Origin: a virus | Length of the DNA: 21,187 bases | IMG/VR virus record: IMGVR_UViG_3300028364_000176 | Coordinates: 1 to 21,187 of that record | Direction: 5' to 3' (one strand) | In this document: positions 3,759-20,829 of the stretch, in pieces | How the letters are laid out: each line of letters begins with the position of its first letter | Numbering within the stretch: position 1 is the stretch's first letter | Notes under the pieces: generated by a model | Told to the model about the DNA's origin: nothing | The model's database searches: none | What the model saw: only the letters and a program-made list of their open reading frames with translations | Made by a program: the position numbers and the translations under genes

Positions 3759-6030
3759 AACCCCCAGCCCGATCCGATCCGAGTTCAAGAACAGCGAACC
3801 GGCCGATCGCTACGGCGATCCCAACCGCTACCTGTTCGGCGGCGACCTGAAGAAAGTCGAGGAGAGCCCGCTGGACGGCGAGCGCGCAACGGTTTTGCAC
3901 GGCAAGCTGATCAGCCACTACCTGCGCGAGCTCGACCGGCAGGCCCCATGGCGTCGCCGCATGGAGCTGGATGAAGACTTCTACGACAGCGAGCAATGGG
4001 ACGCGGAATCCCTGATGGCGCTCAAGGAGCGCGGACAGGAGCCGTTGGTCCTGAACGTCATCGCCCAATCCATCAATTGGATCATCGGCAGCCAGCGCCG
4101 GGCCCGTAGCGACTACAAGATTTTGCCGCGCAGGAAGGAGGCCGCGAAGATCGCCGAGCGCAAGTCGCAACTGATGAAGTATCTCGCCGACACCAACAAG
4201 AGCATGTTCAGCTATTCCGAAGCCTTCGAGGAAATGGTGAAGGCCGGTCTGTCCTTTATGGAAAGCGGTGTGCAGGACGATACGGACGGCGAGCCGATCT
4301 ATGACCGGTGCGAGTCGTGGCGCAACATCATTTGGGACAGCACAGCCCGCGAGCGCGACCTGAGCGACAGCCGGTACATTTTCCGCACCAAATGGGTCGA
4401 TCTGGACACCGCCTGCGCCCTCTTTCCCAAGCGCAAGACACAGATCAACCTTTCGGCTTCCAGCACCTATGAGATGGGCGGAAGCGTTGACCGATTCGGC
4501 GATGATCCCATGGATTCGGCGGAACACGACACGATCGACGGCAGCTATTCCAGCATTGAGCACCCTACCAGCGTGCGAGAGCGCGTTCGCCTGATCGAGG
4601 CATGGTTCAAGGTGCCCGAGCAAGAGAACGTCATGGCAGGCGGCGACTTTGCCGGGGAGCTCTACGACGAGCGCAGCCCCGGCCACCGCCAGCAGATCGA
4701 GACCGGACAAGCAGAGGTGCGCAAGCGCCTGACCTACCGCATGTACGTCATGGTTATGACCACGAAGCACGTCCTTTGGATGTCGAAGTCACCATACCGG
4801 CACAACAGATACCCGTTCACGCCCATGTGGTGTTACCGGAAATCGGCCACAGGCGAGCCTTACGGCGTGGTGCGAAACATGGTCGATGCGCAAAAGGACA
4901 TCAACAAGCGCTTCTCGAAGGCATTGGCCATCCTGAGCAGCAACAAGACCATCATGGACGCTGGCGCAGTCGATGACCTGGAGGAATTTGAAGAAGAGGT
5001 GGCGCGGCCAAACGCGATCATCGTCAAGAATAAAGGCTATGACCTCAAGATCGACGCGGATCGCGAGCTTTCTGGCGCGCACTTGAGCGTGATGCAGATG
5101 TCGATGCAGATGATCCAGACCCTTTCCGGCGTCACAGACGAGGCCATGGGGCGAACGACCAATGCCGTCTCCGGCCGCGCGATCATGGCCCGCCAGGAAC
5201 AAGGGGCGGTATCCACCGCCAAGCCCTTCGACGCCCTGCGCGCGTGCAAGCAATATCACGGCGAAAAACAGCTTTCCCTCATTGAACAGTTTATGACCGA
5301 GGAAAAGCAATTCCGCATCACCAACAGCCGCGGGCAGCCCGATTACGTCCTGATCAATGACGGCATGCCCGAGAACGACATCAGCCTGACCAAGGCCGAC
5401 TACATCATCAGCGAAGACAACTGGAACGCCTCGCTGCGCCAAGCACAGGTTTCCGAGCTGATGGAGATGATGACGCAGCTCGCGCCCGTCGCGCCGCAAA
5501 TCGTCATGGTTCTTCTCGATCTGGTGGTCGAGACGATGGACATTCCCAGCCGCGAGGAAATCGTCAAGCGCATCCGCAACATCACGGGCATGGAGGATCC
5601 CGACGCTGACCCGTCAGTCCCAGACCCCGAGCGTGAGGCGCGCGAGCAGCAAAAAGAGGCGCAAGCCCAGATGCAGCAGCGCATGGAGGTCGCCCAGATC
5701 GCGAAGGCCGAAGGTGAGGCGGCAAAGGCTATGGCCGTAGCCGAGAAGGAAGCGGCCAACGCGGCAAAGCTCCTTCAATCCCTGCCCGGCGCCGACATCG
5801 AACAAAAGCGGGCGGCGCTTGAACTGGCCCTGATGCTTCTATCCAGCCCGCCGCAGGCCACCAGCACGGCAGACGTGATCCAGGAAGGGGCCGAGGGCAA
5901 GGCGATGCAAGGCATGGCCGCCCTGAAAGGTGGGGGAGAGCCTCCGCCCATGAGCCCCGAACAGGACGCCGCCATGATGGCCGAACAAGAAGCGATGATG
6001 GCCGAAGAAGCAGCACCTACCACCCTCTAA
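3745..6030 (+). CDS. Portal protein, P22 type
   Basis: This 761-aa protein is close to the length of P22 gp1 and has the features of that portal family, the dodecameric ring at one head vertex through which DNA enters and leaves. Seen in the sequence: the N-terminal motif FYDSEQWDAE, then PLVLNVIAQSINWIIGSQRRARSD (an N-R-I-like helix followed by the GNQR/GSQR turn, residues about 95-118), a central DAQKDINKRFSKAL helix, and SGRAIMARQEQG (about residues 477-488), a signature stretch of this family. From about residue 620 the protein is Gln/Ala/Glu-rich and strongly helical, like the C-terminal barrel of P22 portal, ending in a Met/Glu/Ala tail. The start ATG has GAGGGA at 3734-3739, 5 nt upstream. 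It follows the terminase block and precedes the scaffold gene, the classic order. Confidence 0.9.
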   Translation: MASYETPSPIRSEFKNSEPADRYGDPNRYLFGGDLKKVEESPLDGERATVLHGKLISHYLRELDRQAPWRRRMELDEDFYDSEQWDAESLMALKERGQEPLVLNVIAQSINWIIGSQRRARSDYKILPRRKEAAKIAERKSQLMKYLADTNKSMFSYSEAFEEMVKAGLSFMESGVQDDTDGEPIYDRCESWRNIIWDSTARERDLSDSRYIFRTKWVDLDTACALFPKRKTQINLSASSTYEMGGSVDRFGDDPMDSAEHDTIDGSYSSIEHPTSVRERVRLIEAWFKVPEQENVMAGGDFAGELYDERSPGHRQQIETGQAEVRKRLTYRMYVMVMTTKHVLWMSKSPYRHNRYPFTPMWCYRKSATGEPYGVVRNMVDAQKDINKRFSKALAILSSNKTIMDAGAVDDLEEFEEEVARPNAIIVKNKGYDLKIDADRELSGAHLSVMQMSMQMIQTLSGVTDEAMGRTTNAVSGRAIMARQEQGAVSTAKPFDALRACKQYHGEKQLSLIEQFMTEEKQFRITNSRGQPDYVLINDGMPENDISLTKADYIISEDNWNASLRQAQVSELMEMMTQLAPVAPQIVMVLLDLVVETMDIPSREEIVKRIRNITGMEDPDADPSVPDPEREAREQQKEAQAQMQQRMEVAQIAKAEGEAAKAMAVAEKEAANAAKLLQSLPGADIEQKRAALELALMLLSSPPQATSTADVIQEGAEGKAMQGMAALKGGGEPPPMSPEQDAAMMAEQEAMMAEEAAPTTL

Positions 6031-9082: not shown

Positions 9083-9565
9083 GTGAAAATCGAATCCACC
9101 ATCAAGCGCGCCAAGGGAACCTTCGTGACCATGCAGGACGGCACGCGCTATGCCTTTGCGCCCAACGACGAAGACGCACACGTCGCCGATGTCGAGGATG
9201 ACGCCCATATCGAGCGGTTCCTTTCGATCACCGAGGGCTTTCGCATCTACCGCGACCCCGCCAAGGCCAAGCCCGCCAAGGCCAATCCCATCAAGGCCGA
9301 TCCCATCAAGGCCGATCCCATCAAGGCCGATGCGCCCGATCCCAACATGCCCGATGCGACTGATCCCGATGGGGATGACGAGGGCGACGACGACACGCCC
9401 GGCGACAGCACCCAAGACCTGCCCCTTGATCAGATGACCCTGACAGACCTGCAGGCCGTCTATCAGCGCGAGCTTGACCGGAAGGCCCACCCGCGCGCAG
9501 GTCTCGCCAAGCTGATCGAGGACATCGAGGCCCACCGGGCAGGCGTCGCCCTGACCCCGGAGTAA
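9083..9565 (+). CDS. Phage protein of unknown function with [DKN]P[AI]KA pentapeptide repeats
   Basis: A 160-aa protein from a GTG at 9083 with AGGAGG at 9069-9074, 8 nt upstream. Three parts are visible. Residues 1-57 form a small folded region (GTFVTMQDGTRYAF, later HIERFLSITEGFRIYRD). Residues 58-82 are five tandem copies of a [DKN]P[AI]KA pentapeptide. Then comes a very acidic linker (DATDPDGDDEGDDD) and a helical C-terminus, MTLTDLQAVYQREL then GLAKLIEDIEAHR, which resembles a helix-loop-helix of the HeH/LEM or Rho-N type. The mixed repeat looks like a flexible spacer between two domains. It sits between head and neck genes, so a head completion or minor head role is possible; I do not recognise a named family. 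Confidence 0.65.
   Translation: MKIESTIKRAKGTFVTMQDGTRYAFAPNDEDAHVADVEDDAHIERFLSITEGFRIYRDPAKAKPAKANPIKADPIKADPIKADAPDPNMPDATDPDGDDEGDDDTPGDSTQDLPLDQMTLTDLQAVYQRELDRKAHPRAGLAKLIEDIEAHRAGVALTPE
9254..9328 (+). repeat. Five 15-bp tandem repeats inside a coding region
   Basis: Units start at 9254, 9269, 9284, 9299 and 9314. The last two are identical (GATCCCATCAAGGCC); the third differs by one base and the first two have GCC in place of ATC. Each encodes a pentapeptide ending in KA. The near-identity of units three to five suggests recent expansion by slippage. Confidence 0.9.
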
Positions 9566-9571
9566 CACTGA

Positions 9572-10255
9572 ATGGCGTTCACGGCTCAGCAGGTAATCAT
9601 CCTGGCGCAAACGACGCTGCAAGACGCAGACGCCGTGCGCTGGCCTCTGGCCGAACTTCTTCGGTGCATCAACGCGGGAACGCGCGAGATTGCCTTGCAG
9701 AAGCCTACCGCCACCAGCGCGACTATCGAACTCGCTCTGGTGGCGGGCACAAAGCAGCAAATCCCCGATGGGTATCACCTCTTTCTGAGCGCCAGCCACA
9801 ACGTCGCAAACGGCAAGCCGGTCAGGACGGTTGAGCGCGAAACGCTGGATACCGAGATCCCCGGCTGGCACAGCCCCGCGATCTTGCCGCGCAGCGCAAC
9901 CGCAATGTTCGTGACCGATGACCACGACGACACCTCGACCTTCTATGTCTGCCCCGGCAATGACGGGACAGGCTTGATCGTCGCGACTCTTTCACGCTTG
10001 CCAGAAGCGATCCCGGTACCGGCTTCGCCCACCCTGATTGCCAGCTACGGCGCGACGGTGCCGCTTGGCGACATCTATCAGAACTGCCTTCTCGATTACG
10101 TCCTCTATCGCGCGTTCTCGAAGGACATCAATATCGCCGGTTCTGCGGCACGCGCACAGGCTCATTATGGCCTGTTTCAGCAAGCCCTTGGCATCAAGGC
10201 GCAGACTGAGGCCACGCAAAACGTCGACCGCCCCCAGAGCCGGTTCAGCCAGTAA
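9572..10255 (+). CDS. Head-tail adaptor protein (DUF6682-like)
   Basis: A 227-aa protein matching the pattern I know for DUF6682 phage adaptor proteins: an N-terminal helical segment with DAVRWPLAELLRCINAGTREIALQKP (residues about 19-44), then GTKQQIPDGYHLFL, VRTVERETLDTEIPGWH, and STFYVCPGNDGTGL. The C-terminus is helical (DYVLYRAFSKD, then AHYGLFQQALG). Such proteins form a ring below the portal and connect head to tail tube. The ATG has GGAG at 9559-9562. The next gene encodes a protein of identical length with a parallel layout. The order capsid, adaptor, nozzle fits podoviral neck assembly. Confidence 0.8.
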   Translation: MAFTAQQVIILAQTTLQDADAVRWPLAELLRCINAGTREIALQKPTATSATIELALVAGTKQQIPDGYHLFLSASHNVANGKPVRTVERETLDTEIPGWHSPAILPRSATAMFVTDDHDDTSTFYVCPGNDGTGLIVATLSRLPEAIPVPASPTLIASYGATVPLGDIYQNCLLDYVLYRAFSKDINIAGSAARAQAHYGLFQQALGIKAQTEATQNVDRPQSRFSQ

Positions 10256-10265
10256 GGGATAGCCC

Positions 10266-10949
10266 ATGTCCGCCACGATCCGCCTCACCGAATTCCTTCC
10301 CTATGTTCTGCCCCATGCCCCCGGCGCCCCGGACTTCGTGGCCGAGAAGTACCTGCGCATGGCCGCAATCGAGTTTTGCGAGCGCACGCGATGCTGGCGC
10401 AAGATCACGGAAATGGACATCACGACATCGAACACCAGAGCTTTGGTTGCGCCCTATCACGCCGCCATTCATCAGATCGAGTTCGCCTCGTTCTCTTCGC
10501 CCACCCACCCGAAAAGCCCGCTGACGCCGACGCAGTATTCCGACATCAGCGATCGCTACCACCCCGAGATGGAGCAGGGAGGGCCGCCGAGATACATCAC
10601 TCAGGTCAACCCCAATGAGGTCAGTGTCTTTCCGATGGCCCCCGGCACGCTTGAGGTGTCGCTGTTTCTCAAGCCCCGCATGGGGCAGGACTTCGCCACC
10701 AACGCGGTGGACGACCCGATGCAGGACACCTTCAACGTGGTGCCCGACTTCCTTCTTACGCAATGGGGCGAGATCATAGCGTCAGGCGCACTGTCCAAGC
10801 TCCTGACGCAGCCGCAAAAGCGCTGGACCGACCCGAACATGGCGGTCTTCTACCTGAACAAGTTCGAAAAAGCCTGCGACCGCCATTTCAGCCGTGGCGT
10901 GCAGGGCCAGCAGCGCGCGCCGCGCCGCACCAAGTTTGCTTTCGTGTGA
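10266..10949 (+). CDS. Second adaptor-like connector protein
   Basis: A 227-aa protein, the same length as the gene before it. The ATG has AAGGGA at 10254-10259, 6 nt upstream. Its plan parallels the upstream adaptor: N-terminal helices (AEKYLRMAAIEFCERTRCWRK), a central beta region with MEQGGPPRYITQV and SVFPMAPGTLEVSLFLKP, where P-GTLEV-L matches the P-GTGL-V-L stretch of the neighbour, and C-terminal helices ending in a basic tail (RAPRRTKFAF). The likely role is a second ring or a tail-tube component between adaptor and nozzle. The distant similarity was judged by eye; no conserved-domain name is certain. Confidence 0.65.
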   Translation: MSATIRLTEFLPYVLPHAPGAPDFVAEKYLRMAAIEFCERTRCWRKITEMDITTSNTRALVAPYHAAIHQIEFASFSSPTHPKSPLTPTQYSDISDRYHPEMEQGGPPRYITQVNPNEVSVFPMAPGTLEVSLFLKPRMGQDFATNAVDDPMQDTFNVVPDFLLTQWGEIIASGALSKLLTQPQKRWTDPNMAVFYLNKFEKACDRHFSRGVQGQQRAPRRTKFAFV

Positions 10950-10959
10950 GGGCCGGATC

Positions 10960-12528
10960 ATGCTCCTGAAAGCCCAGAACTTCCGCGGCGAAATCCCAAA
11001 GCTGCAACCGAGGCTGTTGCCGCCCGGTTTCGGCCAGGTTGCGATCAACGTCCGTCTCGATGACGGTGCGATCCGCCCCCTGCGCGCGCCGGCCGCAGCG
11101 CACACCTTCCTTTCAAGCGTGGCGAGCTTCACCTTCTTCAATGACAACTGGATCGGCTGGGCAAGTGTGGTCAACGCTGTGCCGGGCCCTGTTGCCCAGA
11201 ACCGCCTCTATGTGACCGGCGACCTGCAACCCCGGCTGATCTATGACGGAGGCACCCGGAACCTTGCGCTTCCCGCGCCGACCGCCGCGCCAACGGTAAC
11301 GCCTGTTGGCACGCCCAACCCGGCAATCCAATCATCCATCCTGTTCACCTACACCCATGTCACCGACCTCGACGAGGAAAGCCCACCGGCTCCGCTGAGC
11401 GCTTCGGTCGATTGGAACCCGCCAATGGGCGTCACAGTGAACGCCTTCTCTGCGCCGCCAGCGGGCCGTGGCATAAACCGCCGCCGCATCTATCGGTCTG
11501 AAACATCCGCCTTGGGCGTGACGGACCTCTATTTCATCGCCGAGCAAGTAATCGGCGCAACCACCTTCACCTACGAGCAGAACACGCACCCCCTGCAAGA
11601 GGTTCTGGCCTCGAACGATTACGACGCGCCGCCCAGCGACATGCAGGGCATCATCAGTATGCCAAATGGCATGATGGCCGCTTTCTCTGGCAAGGAGATC
11701 CTGTTCTGCGAGCCATTCATCCCGCATGCGTGGCCGGTCAAGTATCGCCTCAAGGTCGATTATGCCATTGTTGGCCTTGCCGCTTTCGGATCAAGCCTTG
11801 CGATCCTGACAACCGGTCAGCCCTACATCGTGCAGGGCACCGCGCCCGAGAACATGGCGATGGAGCGCATGGAGGTGAATTACCCTTGCGCGTCGGCCCG
11901 CTCGATCGTGGATCTTGGGTACTCAGCCGTCTACGCCTCGCCGGAAGGCTTGGTGATGATCAGCAATGGCCGGGCCGATGTTATCTCGCGCCGCCTCTGG
12001 ACGCGCGAGCAATGGGCAGCACTGAACCCGGCAACCTTCATCGCAGGCCAATACGATGGGGCCTATGTCGCGTCCTACCTGGTGTCCGAGGGCCAGCGCG
12101 CAATCGTGGTGCTTGATCTGACCGGCGAACAACCGTTCCTGACCCGCGCGACGGTGCAGGCCGCCGCCATGCACTATGACATTCAGACCGGCAGCCTCTT
12201 CGTGCTCGAAGGGGTTTCAGCGGGAACGCAAGTCCGCAGATGGGATAGCGGCCCGGCCCTGACCTACAGGTGGCGCTCCGGGCTGATGCACTATGGCGGG
12301 GCGGTCGGGTTTGGTGCAGGGCTGACGCAGACGGACGAGGCAGACGGCGCGAGCGTCACAACGCGAGTGTTCGGCGGCGGCCAGCAGATCATGGCCACCC
12401 AAGACGCCGACGAGGCCTATCGCGTGCCTGATGGCCTGCACCACCGCTGGCAGTTCGAATGCGAGGGCACCGCAACGGTGACGGGCTTCCTGCTTGGCGG
12501 CGATATGTCTGAGCTCGTGGGAGGCTGA
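10960..12528 (+). CDS. Tail nozzle-like protein (P22 gp10 / T7 gp12 functional class)
   Basis: A 522-aa, beta-rich protein after the adaptors. I chose ATG 10960 because GAGGG (10948-10952) lies 7 nt upstream; the open frame extends 22 codons further up, inside the previous gene, with no ribosome site. The start (FRGEIPKLQPRLLPPGFGQVAINVRLDDGAIRPLR) is typical of podoviral tail proteins that begin by listing what the tube is built from. Strand repeats with aromatic/Gly turns follow, including NRLYVTGD, RRRIYRSETS, KEILFCEPFIPHAWP (a motif often seen in these proteins), TTGQPYIVQGTAP and YASPEGLVMIS, consistent with a beta-propeller. The role would be closing the tail tip and holding fibres. 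A structural search would be needed to separate nozzle from other tail-hub types. Confidence 0.7.
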   Translation: MLLKAQNFRGEIPKLQPRLLPPGFGQVAINVRLDDGAIRPLRAPAAAHTFLSSVASFTFFNDNWIGWASVVNAVPGPVAQNRLYVTGDLQPRLIYDGGTRNLALPAPTAAPTVTPVGTPNPAIQSSILFTYTHVTDLDEESPPAPLSASVDWNPPMGVTVNAFSAPPAGRGINRRRIYRSETSALGVTDLYFIAEQVIGATTFTYEQNTHPLQEVLASNDYDAPPSDMQGIISMPNGMMAAFSGKEILFCEPFIPHAWPVKYRLKVDYAIVGLAAFGSSLAILTTGQPYIVQGTAPENMAMERMEVNYPCASARSIVDLGYSAVYASPEGLVMISNGRADVISRRLWTREQWAALNPATFIAGQYDGAYVASYLVSEGQRAIVVLDLTGEQPFLTRATVQAAAMHYDIQTGSLFVLEGVSAGTQVRRWDSGPALTYRWRSGLMHYGGAVGFGAGLTQTDEADGASVTTRVFGGGQQIMATQDADEAYRVPDGLHHRWQFECEGTATVTGFLLGGDMSELVGG

Positions 12529-12529
12529 C

Positions 12530-14866
12530 ATGACCATCTATGAACGCAAATTGCTTGAAGCCTTGCAGGTTCTCGTGGGCGAGCGCGGCCCGGGGGGAAA
12601 GCGGGCGCTGCGCGTTGAGGAATTCGACAAGCTCTTTCAGCCGGCCAACGTGACGACCATGAGGCGCATCGCCGAGATCACCGCCCTTGCCGCGCAGCAG
12701 GGCGTGGCGATCAACTCCATCGTGGTGAACCTCGCGACCGTCAACACCGATGTCGATGACGTTCAGGCCGCCGTGCAGACCTTTACCACAACGATACAGG
12801 CCGATTTCGACAGCCTGAACATTGATGTGGCTGCGGCGAATACCGCCGTGACGCAGGCGCAGACCATCAAGGATGAAGTCACCACCCTTCGCAATGAGAC
12901 TGGCACGTTCAACACTGCGGCCGGGGCGGCCAGAACCGCGTCAGAAACAGCTCGCGACCAAGCGCAAACATCAGCGACAAATGCTCAAGGCAGTGCGACC
13001 GCCGCCGCAGGGGATGCGACCTCTGCATCTTCATCGGCGACGAACTCATCGAACAGCGCAACGGCGGCTCAAGGGCATGCCGTCAGCGCTTCTGCATCAA
13101 TGGACGATGCAGTGGACGCCGCAGCGCTTTCAGCGAGCAATGCAAGTGCAGCGGCAACGAACGCCACCGCCGCCGCCGCATCCTCCAGTGATGCATCCAT
13201 TGAGGCGACAGCGGCCAGCACTGAAAGGGTAGCGGCGGAAACGGCGCGAACGGCAGCACAAAGCGCCCGTGATGCGGCAGTCACTGCCAAGGACAGTGCA
13301 GAGACATCAGCGGCCACGGCAACGACACAGGCCGGGATATCGACCACAGCGGCCACCAACTCCGGCAGCAGCGCAACGAGCTCAGCGTCGAGCGCGGCGG
13401 CTGCGTCTTCTTCTGCCAGCGATGCAGGCACATCGGCCACGGCGGCGCAGACGGCACAGACGGCGGCTGAAACCGCGCGCTCGGGTGCCGAGGCGTCCGA
13501 GACCGCCGCCGCAAGCAGCGAGACCAGCGCGACCGCATCGCAAGCAGCGGCATCCACGAGTGCCACTACATCTGCCACAAGCGCCACCGCAGCCGGAACA
13601 AGTGCCACAGAGGCAGGGACCAGCGCAACAGAGGCAGGGACCAGCGCAACAGAGGCAGCCACCAGTGCATCTGCGGCTTCTACCAGCGCAACCACCGCTG
13701 CGACTTCTGCGACAGAGGCCGAAACGAGCGCAACGGCAGCAAGTGCAAGCTCCACCACGGCGACGACAGCGGCGACAAGCGCAGGTGTTGCGCGGGATCA
13801 GTCTGTGACCGCCAGGGATGCCGCCGACAGCGCAGCCGCACTCGCAGGTGATCGACTGGCAGTCACCGCCGCGATTACATCGCAAGGCGTATCAGTGTTG
13901 CGCGACCAGTTCCTTGAAAACCTGAGCGGCAATTACTGGACTCGCGAGACGGCGCAAGGCGCGCTTACCCGTCCAGATAACACGCTTTTTTCTATAGGCC
14001 GCGATTGGCAATTTGTTCTAACCTTGGGCCAAATCGACGGCATGATGACGCAAAGCGATCGGGACAACTGGCGCGGTGCTGAAAACGCGACGCAATACCT
14101 TGTCGAGGTAGACTTTACCCTCGTCTCTGGCCCTTTGGGGCCGGTCAGCCTTTGGTTTGATTGGGTGAACGACGCAGGCACGGTCCACCGCGTCGATCAA
14201 GATTTTGCCGATAACGTCGTTGGCCTTCTTGTCGTTGGGCAGGCAATGACAGCATCCTTTCTGGTCGAGCGCCCATCGGGATATTCTGGGGTCTTTTCGT
14301 TCAACCGCGCCTATGTCTGGGCAGCGGAGCCAAGTTCTTCCGGCGCCGCGAAAACAATCAAGTTTCACAGGATAAGCATTCGGCCGGCCAATAATGCTGA
14401 AAGGCGTGTTGTCAGCATCGAGGCGTCAGTTTCCGCTGAAAGCATTGCTCGCGCTTCTGCCGATACCGCCTTGGCAACGCAGATTACCGAAGTCGAGACC
14501 GATCTGGACGGTGTGACGGCTTCCGTGACGACGCAAGCCACCGCAATCAGCACCCTTGAGGGCAATGCCGCTGCGACACTGGCCTTTCGTGTCAAGGCTG
14601 GCACCAGCGGCGCGCAGATAGAGCTTGTTGCAGCAGACGACCCGGCAGGCTCGGTGTCAGCGGCCAGAATCGACGCGGACGAAATCATTCTGACCGGTAG
14701 CGTAACGGCTGATCTGATAAGCGTGACCGAGCTTTCGGCAATCACGGCGACCCTTGGCACATTTCAAAGCGCGGCCTCTGGCGAGCGTATCGTGATCGAG
14801 GGAGACCGGATCAGCGTGTTCGACAGCGGCAACCAGCTTCGCGTTCGGATCGGCAGGCTCGCATGA
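12530..14866 (+). CDS. Tail fibre with long Ala/Ser/Thr heptad-repeat shaft
   Basis: A 778-aa protein. ATG 12530 is chosen because GGGAGG (12519-12524) is 5 nt upstream; a longer frame from 12494 would start inside the previous gene. Residues 1-60 form a charged N-terminal anchor. Residues about 60-120 are helical with heptad spacing. Residues about 124-443 are almost entirely Ala, Ser and Thr with scattered acidic residues, in seven-residue steps such as GTSATEA, like the trimeric shafts of lambda Stf-type side fibres. Residues about 457-630 form a folded domain (NYWTRETAQGALTRPDN, WLFD-like strands) that may bind ligand. The end (about 640-778) includes SVTADLISVTELSAIT and ERIVIEGDRISVFDSGNQLRVRIG, resembling C-terminal segments of gpJ-type tip proteins. 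It overlaps the next gene by ATGA. Confidence 0.8.
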   Translation: MTIYERKLLEALQVLVGERGPGGKRALRVEEFDKLFQPANVTTMRRIAEITALAAQQGVAINSIVVNLATVNTDVDDVQAAVQTFTTTIQADFDSLNIDVAAANTAVTQAQTIKDEVTTLRNETGTFNTAAGAARTASETARDQAQTSATNAQGSATAAAGDATSASSSATNSSNSATAAQGHAVSASASMDDAVDAAALSASNASAAATNATAAAASSSDASIEATAASTERVAAETARTAAQSARDAAVTAKDSAETSAATATTQAGISTTAATNSGSSATSSASSAAAASSSASDAGTSATAAQTAQTAAETARSGAEASETAAASSETSATASQAAASTSATTSATSATAAGTSATEAGTSATEAGTSATEAATSASAASTSATTAATSATEAETSATAASASSTTATTAATSAGVARDQSVTARDAADSAAALAGDRLAVTAAITSQGVSVLRDQFLENLSGNYWTRETAQGALTRPDNTLFSIGRDWQFVLTLGQIDGMMTQSDRDNWRGAENATQYLVEVDFTLVSGPLGPVSLWFDWVNDAGTVHRVDQDFADNVVGLLVVGQAMTASFLVERPSGYSGVFSFNRAYVWAAEPSSSGAAKTIKFHRISIRPANNAERRVVSIEASVSAESIARASADTALATQITEVETDLDGVTASVTTQATAISTLEGNAAATLAFRVKAGTSGAQIELVAADDPAGSVSAARIDADEIILTGSVTADLISVTELSAITATLGTFQSAASGERIVIEGDRISVFDSGNQLRVRIGRLA
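13595..13657 (+). repeat. 21-bp tandem repeats in the fibre shaft
   Basis: Three units at 13595-13615, 13616-13636 and 13637-13657 each encode GTSATEA; the last two are identical in DNA. Degenerate seven-residue units continue on both sides. The unit length of exactly one heptad would keep the coiled-coil phase if copies are gained or lost, so shaft length can change without breaking the fibre. Confidence 0.85.
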
Positions 14867-17530: not shown

Positions 17531-18259
17531 ATGGCCCTCGCAGCAGGCTTGCTTCAAGGCATTGGTGGCGGCATGCAAATGCGCCAAGACCGGCAGCTTC
17601 GCCAGCGCGAGCTTTCCGCTATGGAAGCAATGGGGCAGAACAGAGGCGGGCAGACCCGGCCCGGCCCGGCTCCGATGGGAATGGGCGTCAGTGATATCGC
17701 CGGGGTATCGGGCGGAGGCGGGGCTTTTCCTGCCAGCCTGATACAAGCCGAAAGTGGTGGCAACTGGCGCGCGCTGAACAACGAGGTTGGTTCCGGTGGA
17801 ACGCGCGGCCACGGCGGACGGCTGCAGTTTGGTCAAGCGCGCCTTCAAGACGCGGCACGCGCCGGTGTGATCCCGCAAATGACGCCGCAGCAATTTGCAG
17901 CATCATCGCCCGAGATACAGATGGCTGCGGAGAACTGGCATTTCAGGGACATTGACGAGGCAATAGACGCGACGGGCGGAATCGGCCAGATGGTGAACGG
18001 CGTTCCCCTGACGCGCGACGCCCTACGCGCGGTTGCGCATCTCGGTGGATCGGCAGGCATGTCGCAATTCGTGCGGTCGGGCGGGCAATACAATCCATCG
18101 GACAGCTTTGGCACGTCGCTGATGGATTATGCCACAAACCACTCGGGCAACGGCGCGCGATCCGCACAGCCAGCGCAGAACCGCCCCGCACAGCCAACGC
18201 AGCCCGCAGGCCGATGGAGCTGGGCAAACACCATGTTAACAGGAGGCGCAGGCCGATGA
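17531..18259 (+). CDS. Virion-associated lytic transglycosylase-like protein
   Basis: A 242-aa protein with GAGGG at 17517-17521 ahead of the ATG. The first 60 residues are helical then Gly/Pro-rich. Residues about 66-185 look like a lysozyme-like transglycosylase: FPASLIQAESGGNW with Glu74 as probable catalytic acid, GGRLQFGQARLQDA (about 95-108) in place of the G-L-M-Q motif, and a C-terminal helical part with AENWHFRDIDEAI. These enzymes cut peptidoglycan glycan strands; in a virion they open a local hole for DNA ejection. The tail (190-242) is Gln/Pro/Ala-rich. It sits between two putative ejection proteins and overlaps the next gene by ATGA. I associate this sub-type with Rhodobacteraceae prophages (memory, not searched). 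Confidence 0.75.
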   Translation: MALAAGLLQGIGGGMQMRQDRQLRQRELSAMEAMGQNRGGQTRPGPAPMGMGVSDIAGVSGGGGAFPASLIQAESGGNWRALNNEVGSGGTRGHGGRLQFGQARLQDAARAGVIPQMTPQQFAASSPEIQMAAENWHFRDIDEAIDATGGIGQMVNGVPLTRDALRAVAHLGGSAGMSQFVRSGGQYNPSDSFGTSLMDYATNHSGNGARSAQPAQNRPAQPTQPAGRWSWANTMLTGGAGR

Positions 18260-20829
18260 GCTTTTTTGCAGGATTTGTTCAAGGCGTCTTTCAGGGTAAA
18301 GACTGGCGCGACAACAAGAACGACCGCAAGCGCGAGCAGGGCATTGCGGACGAGCGCCTTGATTGGGAGCGCGAAGACCGAGGCTGGACCGGCGAAGCCC
18401 GAGATCGTCAGCGTCAGGTCTGGACGCAGGCTGATGAAGATCGGGCGCGCACAAATCGCGAGCGCCAGCGCGGCGAGGACAACCAAGCCGAGTTCGAGGA
18501 TATCGTTGACGGCTTGGAGGGTGGTGGACAGCCGCAGGACCGGGGCACGCCAGCACGAGAAGGCGAGCGGCCGCCGCGCACAACATCCACACGGGGCGGT
18601 GCATCGGCGCGCGAATTGTCCGTTGCTAACCTTGGATCGCTTGGAAGCGCCGCAGACAGCGTGAGCATGGGGCAGCCTGCTACCGGCGACCCGCGCCAGC
18701 CCGTTCCCGCGTTGAGCATGGGGCAGCAAGCAGATGGGCCGCGCAACGCCAGCGCAACGCCAGCGCAACGCCCGAACAACGCGCGCGGCGACAGGTCCAG
18801 AGGCGACGATGCGATGCGCGCCGACGAGGATTTCAGACCGCAGCCGCAGCGACAGCCGCTTTCCATCGCAATTCCAGCCGTGATGCCGCCCCGGGGCGAA
18901 GATGCGATGCGCGCCGATGAAGACTTTCGACCTGCGACGCGCAGGGGGGCTGGCAACGACGACGCGATGCGGATGGACGAGGATTTCCGACCCGTGCCGC
19001 CCCGCAGCGTGCGCGGTGGCCAGCCGTTCGATCAGAGCAGCGTTCGACCAGAAGAGCCGCAGCAGCCCCGCAGCGTGCGCGGTGGGCAACCGTTCGTTGG
19101 TGGCCGTGAGCAGCCCGGTCCCTTGCCTATGACGGTCAATCCAAACGGCAGTTCGCTGATTGATGCGGCCCAAGGTCGTGGCCAAGCCTCTTCGGATTAC
19201 ACCGAGGCGACGCGCGGGTTCCGCAGCGACGCGCCCCAGCGCGGTGTCAGACCTGTAGAAGATGCGCCGCCGATGCCGAGAAGCGCTGGTGACGAGCGGT
19301 TGCGCGCTGATGAAGACTTTCGGCCAAGAGAGTTGCGACCAAGAGATGAAGCGCCGGATCGCAGGGGCCCGCCCCGAGACGTGCGCGGTGGCCGTCCGTT
19401 CAGGGGAGAGCAGGATAGCGGCACTGGTGGCCTTGGTGTGCTCCACAATATGATTGCCGATGCGGATGAAAGCCGCGCGCGCGAGGATCGCGATGCGGCG
19501 AACGATCAACTTCGCGCCCGCGAGGATGGCGAACGTGCGCCAACCCCCTCTGAGGCGCGGGCTCAAGCGATCCAGTCCGGCGCAGGCGGCATTGCGGGGC
19601 GCGGGGGCATGAGCGTTCTGGACGCCGTGACGGATGCAGGGGCTGTGCTCAACAGAGCGGGCACCCGCGTTATTGAGGGCGTCGGCGCGGGCTTGTCGGT
19701 TGTGAGCCCCAGCGCAGGCGCGGCGGTTTTCGATGCCGTTGGTCAAATGGATCGCGCCAGTGATCGGCTTGCGGGCATGGGGGAAGGCACAGCCGCCGCG
19801 CCGATGCCCCCCACTCAGGGCCTCGCACCTGCGGCCCCGTCAGGCGCACCCGCCGCCCCAGCACCCGCTGGCCAGCAGCCTACGGCTCAACCCGGCCCGG
19901 CTCAACCCAGCCCGGCGCGGGCCGCCCCGGCCCCGAGTGGAGCGCCGTTCAGTTCGAGGTTCAACTTCAACGGGAATGAAGGGACGATTTCCGGGCGCGA
20001 GCGCGTCAGCACCAACACCGTGGCCGATGTCGTCCCGCGTGAAACTCAAAGCGGTACGCCCGCGCCCTCTGTCGCAATCGCAGGTAAAGCGATTTCTGCC
20101 CGGTTCAGCGCAGGCTTTTCAATCCGCGATGCCGCCAATCCGCAAGCTCAGGCCCGCCCCAAGGCCAGCGAGGTTCGCGCGACGGCGCGCGAGGCGGTGA
20201 AGCGATTTGATGAGGACGGCATTCGCCGCCTTGAGCAGCACTTTATTCGCAACGGAGAGTTTGGAAAAGCCGAGCAATGGCGCAGCTTTGCCACCAGCGC
20301 CAACACGCAAGCCGCGCTGGGAAAATGGGTCGAGGCAATGACCTACTGGCAGATGAACGACGAGGACGGCTTTCTGGACTCGGTGGCCGATGTCTACAAC
20401 TCCCGAGGCTATTACGAAGACGGCTTGAGCGTCTTGCGTGAGGGCACGGAGTTCCGCAGGGACGAGGGCGGCAACATCATCGGCGCCTCGATCACCTTCC
20501 GTGATGATGCGAGCGGCGAAACTTTCAGGCGCAACATCCAAGGCCCACGCGATCTTGTCGGTGCGGCAATCATCGGGGCGCTTTCGCCGGAACAAGTCTT
20601 CGAGCAAGGCATGGCCGAGGCGCAAGCCATGGCAGCGCAGCAGGAGGCCGACGCGCGAGGAATGAGCCTTGATGATCGCGTTCAGATCGAAACCCGAGTG
20701 ACCGCCCTTGCGACGGAAATGGGAAAGATCACTGGCGTGACGCCTGAGATTTACGAACAGGCCCGCCAGATTGTCGAGCGACAGCTTGGGATCAACACTG
20801 GCGGGAATGTTCCCGTCCTGACTGACTGA
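18256..20829 (+). CDS. Large putative ejection (internal virion) protein with disordered motif array
   Basis: An 857-aa protein. ATG 18256 overlaps the previous stop (ATGA) and has AGGAGG at 18241-18246, 9 nt upstream; the open frame begins earlier, at 18214. Residues 1-80 are helical and highly charged (SFFAGFVQGVFQGKDWRDNKN onward). Residues about 95-430 appear disordered, rich in Arg, Asp, Pro, Gln and Gly, with four copies of a RxDEDFRP motif (185-195, 216-226, 236-246, 347-357) and three of [PQ]PR[SD]VRGGxPF (cores at 251-258, 273-280, 375-382). Residues 440-510 include an Ala/Gly/Val-rich, possibly membrane-active segment (AVTDAGAVLNRAGTRVIEGVG). After a Pro/Ala linker, residues about 630-830 are a helical folded domain. 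The neighbours point to an ejection protein; no family name is recognised. Confidence 0.7.
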   Translation: MSFFAGFVQGVFQGKDWRDNKNDRKREQGIADERLDWEREDRGWTGEARDRQRQVWTQADEDRARTNRERQRGEDNQAEFEDIVDGLEGGGQPQDRGTPAREGERPPRTTSTRGGASARELSVANLGSLGSAADSVSMGQPATGDPRQPVPALSMGQQADGPRNASATPAQRPNNARGDRSRGDDAMRADEDFRPQPQRQPLSIAIPAVMPPRGEDAMRADEDFRPATRRGAGNDDAMRMDEDFRPVPPRSVRGGQPFDQSSVRPEEPQQPRSVRGGQPFVGGREQPGPLPMTVNPNGSSLIDAAQGRGQASSDYTEATRGFRSDAPQRGVRPVEDAPPMPRSAGDERLRADEDFRPRELRPRDEAPDRRGPPRDVRGGRPFRGEQDSGTGGLGVLHNMIADADESRAREDRDAANDQLRAREDGERAPTPSEARAQAIQSGAGGIAGRGGMSVLDAVTDAGAVLNRAGTRVIEGVGAGLSVVSPSAGAAVFDAVGQMDRASDRLAGMGEGTAAAPMPPTQGLAPAAPSGAPAAPAPAGQQPTAQPGPAQPSPARAAPAPSGAPFSSRFNFNGNEGTISGRERVSTNTVADVVPRETQSGTPAPSVAIAGKAISARFSAGFSIRDAANPQAQARPKASEVRATAREAVKRFDEDGIRRLEQHFIRNGEFGKAEQWRSFATSANTQAALGKWVEAMTYWQMNDEDGFLDSVADVYNSRGYYEDGLSVLREGTEFRRDEGGNIIGASITFRDDASGETFRRNIQGPRDLVGAAIIGALSPEQVFEQGMAEAQAMAAQQEADARGMSLDDRVQIETRVTALATEMGKITGVTPEIYEQARQIVERQLGINTGGNVPVLTD
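18808..19401 (+). repeat. Dispersed coding repeats: DEDFRP and VRGGxPF motif arrays
   Basis: Copies of the DEDFRP unit lie at 18808-18840, 18901-18933, 18961-18993 and 19294-19326. Copies of the VRGGxPF unit lie at 19006-19029, 19072-19095 and 19378-19401. The first two VRGG copies share a long nearly identical DNA stretch, while the DEDFRP copies vary at synonymous positions, so the peptide rather than the DNA seems to be conserved. Confidence 0.85.

Follow-up and report, generated by a model that had tools for sequence, protein, structure and literature searches.

The seven copies of two short peptides in the 857-residue protein described here are best explained, in a reading to which we give somewhat less than an even chance, as multivalent docking sites in a linker that is peculiar to its lineage and belongs to an ejection-type protein of a Bcep22/PEp14-like podophage. 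As the known relatives lack the motif sets, the region is probably a docking or sticking region specific to its lineage rather than a widely shared signal. On this reading the protein is an internal (ejection-type) virion protein whose N-terminal helix and folded C-terminal core are connected by a disordered linker, and in this lineage the linker would have acquired a multivalent array built from two short aromatic-centred peptides, the acidic MRxDEDFRP and the basic PRSVRGGxPF. The motifs would most plausibly serve as low-affinity docking sites whose avidity keeps the protein bound, until ejection, to a partner within the head, the portal ring, the giant DarB-like protein, the transglycosylase and the S74 protein being candidate partners. 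The copies, their codon pattern, the predicted disorder, the family, the gene neighbourhood and the absence of the motifs in relatives are shown by the analysis, whereas the docking and its partner are inferred. Little is known of how podophages of the Bcep22 type, which have a giant DarB-like protein in their internal set, gather their ejection proteins and hold them in the head.

The material was 21,187 nt of viral DNA, one strand, from IMG/VR record IMGVR_UViG_3300028364_000176 (positions 1-21,187); we call this whole stretch the window. The gene for the 857-aa protein sits in it between the S74 protein gene and a giant DarB-like gene (Table 1). A longer reading frame call, starting at 18214, is unsupported because the nearest relative likewise starts MSFFAGFV. 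For comparison, an alignment search with the S74 protein supplied the best 80 of 178 IMG/VR loci which, with L013 added, make 81 loci, 71 of them with the core; the 10 of the 80 with no core match are all short, ending no more than about 2.1 kb from the S74 start. The comparison set is therefore 72 rows (71 plus the window), two of its loci (L013 and L047) coming from the same provirus. Start codons of the homologues were set by rule, and one mis-trimmed row (L096) was left out of the linker counts, for which residues before 76 were treated as N-terminal in all rows. In 38 of these rows (from the best 80 of 178 loci), the window among them, the core begins no earlier than residue 225; in the remainder it begins before that.

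Table 1. Features of the 857-aa protein and its neighbour (window positions).
Feature	Position	Strand	Remarks
Gene of 857-aa phrog_9667-type virion protein	18256..20829	+	ATG at 18256
Predicted N-terminal helix, residues 11-88, charged, Trp-containing	18286..18519	+	predicted structure and pRA01 comparison
RADEDFRP copy 1	18817..18840	+	starts residue 188
RADEDFRP copy 2	18910..18933	+	starts residue 219
RMDEDFRP copy 3	18970..18993	+	starts residue 239
PPRSVRGGQPF copy 1	18997..19029	+	starts residue 248
QPRSVRGGQPF copy 2	19063..19095	+	starts residue 270
Conserved island, residues 303-327 (DAAQGRGQASSDYTEATRGFRSDAP)	19162..19236	+	21/25 identical in Roseicitreum relative
RADEDFRP copy 4	19303..19326	+	starts residue 350
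PPRDVRGGRPF copy 3	19369..19401	+	starts residue 372
Predicted helix, residues 395-425, immediately 3' of array	19438..19530	+	AlphaFold model
Folded C-terminal core (predicted), residues 637-843, helices and three strands	20164..20784	+	model and phrog_9667 match
Giant DarB-like protein gene, start (GTG), truncated by contig end	20902..21187	+	N-terminus matches relatives' downstream ORF

All four RxDEDFRP and three [PQ]PR[SD]VRGGxPF copies of the original prediction were found where it had placed them, in one frame. Its description of the two arrays as interleaved holds in part, as the copy order is E-E-E-V-V-E-V (E for RxDEDFRP, V for [PQ]PR[SD]VRGGxPF) and the arrays are thus only partly interleaved. 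Upstream, RxDEDFRP is extended by DAMR in copies 1-3 and by ERLR in copy 4. Over residues 76-640 the most frequent 6-mer has four copies, which none of 5000 composition-preserving shuffles equalled; the 5-mer repeat count was likewise equalled in 0 of 5000 and the 4-mer count in 31 of 5000. The top internal ungapped repeat score was 76, whereas 20 shuffles reached 58 at most. At the codon level, RxDEDFRP has a pS of 1.09, its synonymous sites being saturated, and a pN of 0.06 (six pairs), the latter stemming from one A-to-M change at x, while DEDFRP is invariant. PRxVRGGxPF has a pS of 0.24 and a pN of 0.11 (three pairs), its copies being still similar as DNA, and it is the younger or more homogenised of the two motifs. 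The peptide conservation with synonymous variation that had been proposed is therefore strong for the first motif and weak for the second. It is in part because these repeats exceed chance, and because the peptide has been held despite saturated synonymous change, that we favour docking. Selection on the repeated peptide, as had also been proposed, is likely for the acidic motif within this protein, although it does not extend across the relatives, from which the motifs are absent. The DEDF codons come in two versions, GAC GAG GAT TTC in copies 1 and 3 (18823-18834, 18976-18987) and GAT GAA GAC TTT in copies 2 and 4 (18916-18927, 19309-19320), which alternate A-B-A-B and differ at all four two-fold sites; either an old pair was duplicated or there was selection against DNA identity.

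In a full-protein AlphaFold model built from 17 aligned sequences, residues 90-394 are disordered, with a pLDDT of about 33-50 (about 33-42 in the 10-residue blocks of the array), bearing out the earlier claim of a disordered region. Beyond the helix at residues 395-425, further disorder is predicted until the core, which has a mean pLDDT of 84.9 when modelled alone from 37 sequences. Foldseek gave no solved relative of the core at E 0.001, the best VIA-align Z was 4.1, to unrelated proteins, and a profile search for a solved relative of the protein found none; a fold search with the core at E 0.001 returned three predicted viral proteins, with the SopranoGao homologue ranked first. The array (residues 181-390, 210 residues) has a net charge of -2, with 34% of its residues charged and 16.7% arginine. 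Of its nine aromatics, four belong to DEDF, three to GG[QR]PF and two, Y315 and F322, to the island; the flanks at 101-180 and 383-491 have none. Every aromatic of the array thus lies in a motif copy or in the island, a sticker-and-spacer layout, and the docking reading draws on this layout and on the disorder of an array bounded by two predicted helices. With its aromatics nearly all in repeated peptides, the linker would provide a compact, mutable handle, with seven changeable sites at which to probe head retention.

The motifs appear to be confined to this phage among the sequences compared. DEDF, DFRP and RGG.PF occur in 0 of the 71 other homologue rows (from the best 80 of 178 S74-found loci plus L013), VRGG occurs singly in L058 and L110 of these same 71 rows (best 80 of 178), and both motifs are absent from 11 of 11 phage homologues and from pRA01, so that every relative examined outside this phage lacks them, an outcome that the original prediction had named as refuting it. 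As DEDFRP and VRGGxPF are in no relative, there is no cross-species conservation, and wide conservation of the motifs is refuted by these sequence comparisons. With strict codon patterns, IMG/VR yielded 19 and 5 stretches, each a lone copy in an unrelated frame; looser copies could be missed, as the patterns require CGN for arginine and tolerate zero mismatches. Searches of genome and viral contigs with the whole protein, and a search with the portal, returned zero relatives; a two-row alignment search found none in genome contigs and only the pRA01-type provirus in viral contigs. In the open-licence literature we found no description of these motifs or of motif arrays in phage ejection proteins.

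The nearest relative is a 664-aa homologue on the Roseicitreum antarcticum plasmid pRA01 (WP_092892200.1, the same protein as in IMG/VR L013/L047). It resembles the window protein in its N-terminus (52 of residues 1-75 identical), in the island at 303-327, in the core and in gene order, but it is shorter and both motif arrays are missing. The expected excess conservation of the motifs over their surroundings is absent in this relative, with 7 of 45 motif cells identical and 18 gapped. The island lies between the second VRGGxPF copy and the fourth DEDFRP copy, in surroundings that cannot be aligned with the Roseicitreum relative, and the alignment search and homologue comparison found it in the pRA01-type relative and in no other homologue. 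In a separate observation, a 425-kb Roseicitreum plasmid record (L006; NZ_CP061502.1, 1-13702) opens inside the giant methylase gene of a similar phage, and this plasmid therefore seems to carry such a phage.

Between the window and the pRA01-type provirus the portal is 75% identical and the S74 protein 60%, against 40%, over a poor alignment, for the 857-aa protein; the comparison shows near-complete turnover of such linkers alongside portal and S74 proteins that remain alike. This rapid turnover, with the motif cells mostly unmatched, might mean that the repeats are the product of neutral or near-neutral drift, having arisen without any specific function by local duplication in a linker that evolves fast. 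The remaining DNA similarity of the PRxVRGGxPF copies agrees with such drift, as does a two-copy peptide of its own in one homologue (L081). We regard it as rather unlikely, given that DEDFRP is identical in four copies despite saturated synonymous sites and that every aromatic of residues 181-390 is in a motif or the island. It is unlikely, too, that the array serves homotypic association, with DED-F of one chain pairing with R..RGG..F of another so that copies condense or stack in the head and separate on ejection. The alternation of acidic and basic aromatic motifs, the net charge of -2 with 34% charged residues and the predicted disorder would suit it, but some relatives (from the best 80 of 178 loci) have equally long linkers and lack both motifs.

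The docking reading also draws on the family of the protein and on its place in the genome. The core matches phrog_9667, a family of virion structural proteins, at E 5.3e-28 (residues 628-801 to positions 56-226 of the 383 in the profile), and Pfam has no family for the protein. The match stops at profile position 226, leaving the C-terminal third unmatched, and those of pRA01 (219) and L081 (241) stop alike; we take the three, from these profile matches, as a shortened phrog_9667 subgroup for which a full-length match is not defining. JC1 gp68 belongs to the same family (E 2e-145) and was detected in CsCl-purified virions with 9 unique peptides and 17% coverage, according to Table 6 of the JC1 report (PMC9144972). 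On the strength of this membership and of JC1 gp68, we accept the earlier assignment of the window protein as a virion protein, which would place it in the virion of this phage by analogy. The phrog_9667 proteins of Burkholderia phages JC1 (gp68) and BcepIL02 (gp69), Serratia phage Parlo (gene 080), Erwinia phage Pavtok (gp26) and Klebsiella phage SopranoGao (gp07) share the core match and the position of the gene, which follows S74 and precedes the giant DarB-like gene; unlike the window protein, they have no motif arrays and carry an extra C-terminal part beyond the core. The homologue is immediately 5' of a giant DarB-like or methylase-helicase gene in Parlo, Skulduggery, Pavtok, SopranoGao, BcepIL02, JC1, Mwe-JY07 and pRA01, and its spacing from the giant gene or its strand deviates in POI1126, Itty13, Atu_ph08 and PBC5. 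In 16 of 37 long-linker loci (from the best 80 of 178) the N-terminus of the window's giant DarB-like protein matches the ORF directly downstream. Among short-linker IMG/VR rows (from the best 80 of 178) the core begins by residue 115 in 32 of 33 usable rows, and at 152 in the other (L092), compared with 645 here. We set aside a connection between the long linker and the transglycosylase, since the window's transglycosylase was matched by phmmer in 6 of the 37 loci with long linkers and in none of the 34 with short ones (from the best 80 of 178), which is too few, and a regular expression missed such enzymes.

An ejection role is suggested by the gene position and by analogy with ejection proteins of other podophages (PMC8954989, PMC10925440, PMC11440229). 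Among these proteins (PMC8954989, PMC10925440), T7 has gp15 and gp16, and gp72 and gp73 of Pseudomonas phage DEV adjoin a giant vRNAP, with DEV gp72 forming a ring at the portal. The likeness to these proteins is of working level only, an internal protein encoded near a giant virion protein; no sequence or fold match was found, and the window protein is a putative member of their group at most.

The acidic repeat bears a weak resemblance in sequence to a conserved portal segment. The window's portal, which has a solved homologue in PDB 8jov (E 2.5e-202; perhaps from phage GP4), reads MELDEDFYD at 3961-3987; MxxDE[DA]FYD is kept in most family portals examined, and one of them reads MRVDEDFYD. 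With a PSSM from 15 portal rows, the window's excluded, the two MRADEDFRP copies and MRMDEDFRP, three of the four repeats, rank directly below the window portal, and no shuffle in 500 matched the score for the linker alone. We think it very unlikely, all the same, that MRxDEDF copies the portal segment and binds that segment's ligand. The idea is post hoc, and 42 of 1000 shuffled proteomes equalled the score when the proteins of the window were taken together, in a scan that read the N-terminus of the giant protein one base out of frame (from 20901) and so did not cover it properly. A BLOSUM search for the resemblance, with this N-terminus in frame, was not significant (249 of 1000), the other homologue linkers reach at best 6.8 with the PSSM against 13.4 here, and the FYD of the portal is FRP in the repeats. 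DNA binding was one possibility raised in the original prediction, and contact of the Arg-rich RGG copies with packaged DNA is highly improbable: arginine is abundant and RGG occurs in all three VRGGxPF copies, but the array has a net charge of -2 over its 210 residues and the three copies (residues 253, 275 and 377) are far apart, each fused to PF. An RGG box consists of several closely spaced RGG or RG repeats, and the array, although likewise a disordered Arg-rich region with RGG tripeptides, is net acidic and has isolated ones.

Across the family, the RS[VI] core of the second motif is suggestive of a shared feature, and its enrichment in linkers from 26 clusters of other homologues (clustered at 50% core identity with the window excluded, from the best 80 of 178 loci) adds to the case for docking. 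In these 26 clusters (best 80 of 178), there are 13 occurrences of RS[VI], spread over 8 clusters, where 2.60 are expected (0 of 1000 shuffles); at least two copies are present in 4 clusters against 0.12 expected, and PRSV occurs 3 times against 0.23 (1 of 1000 shuffles). The reversed strings show no significant excess in the same clusters (best 80 of 178), with VSR at 2 against 1.76 and SVR at 4 against 1.78. The flanks of the homologue RS[VI] matches are mostly dissimilar, which is evidence against simple descent. RS[VI] was not among the top patterns listed by a blind split-half (discovery and test) screen, which covered 50,310 three-position patterns, and in the S74 protein RS[VIM] occurs 16 times against 5.3 in shuffles, partly at a conserved S74 site, so that the shuffle control is imperfect. 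We accordingly do not regard RS[VI] as a proven motif of the family. These two results stand against the docking reading, along with the lack of DEDFRP or VRGGxPF in any relative and of a solved relative for the core. A more elaborate scheme, in which the acidic array imitates the portal segment four times over, the RSV-core array serves this family of ejection proteins as a second docking code, and the linker zips the internal protein onto the 12-fold portal by avidity while evolving by motif swaps between lineages, seems to us scarcely probable.

Other patterns were seen in the homologue linkers. LS[FYM]G occurs 8 times against 0.09 expected (26 clusters, from the best 80 of 178 loci), in L048, L051, L052, L057, L066 and L071, with a p-value that is post hoc because the pattern was picked by eye before testing. 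The two-copy peptide in the linker of L081 (protein at 9928-12702) is RPANxDxTDDARAxRGTGRxxD, and a DYFTxxPxxG...WY segment resembling a small inserted domain is common to the linkers of L054, L057, L066, L074 and L081; the blind screen has a corresponding [DE]YF pattern. Elsewhere in the window, at 9083-9565, a short protein has tandem KADPI repeats (PAKANPIKADPIKADPIKADAP).
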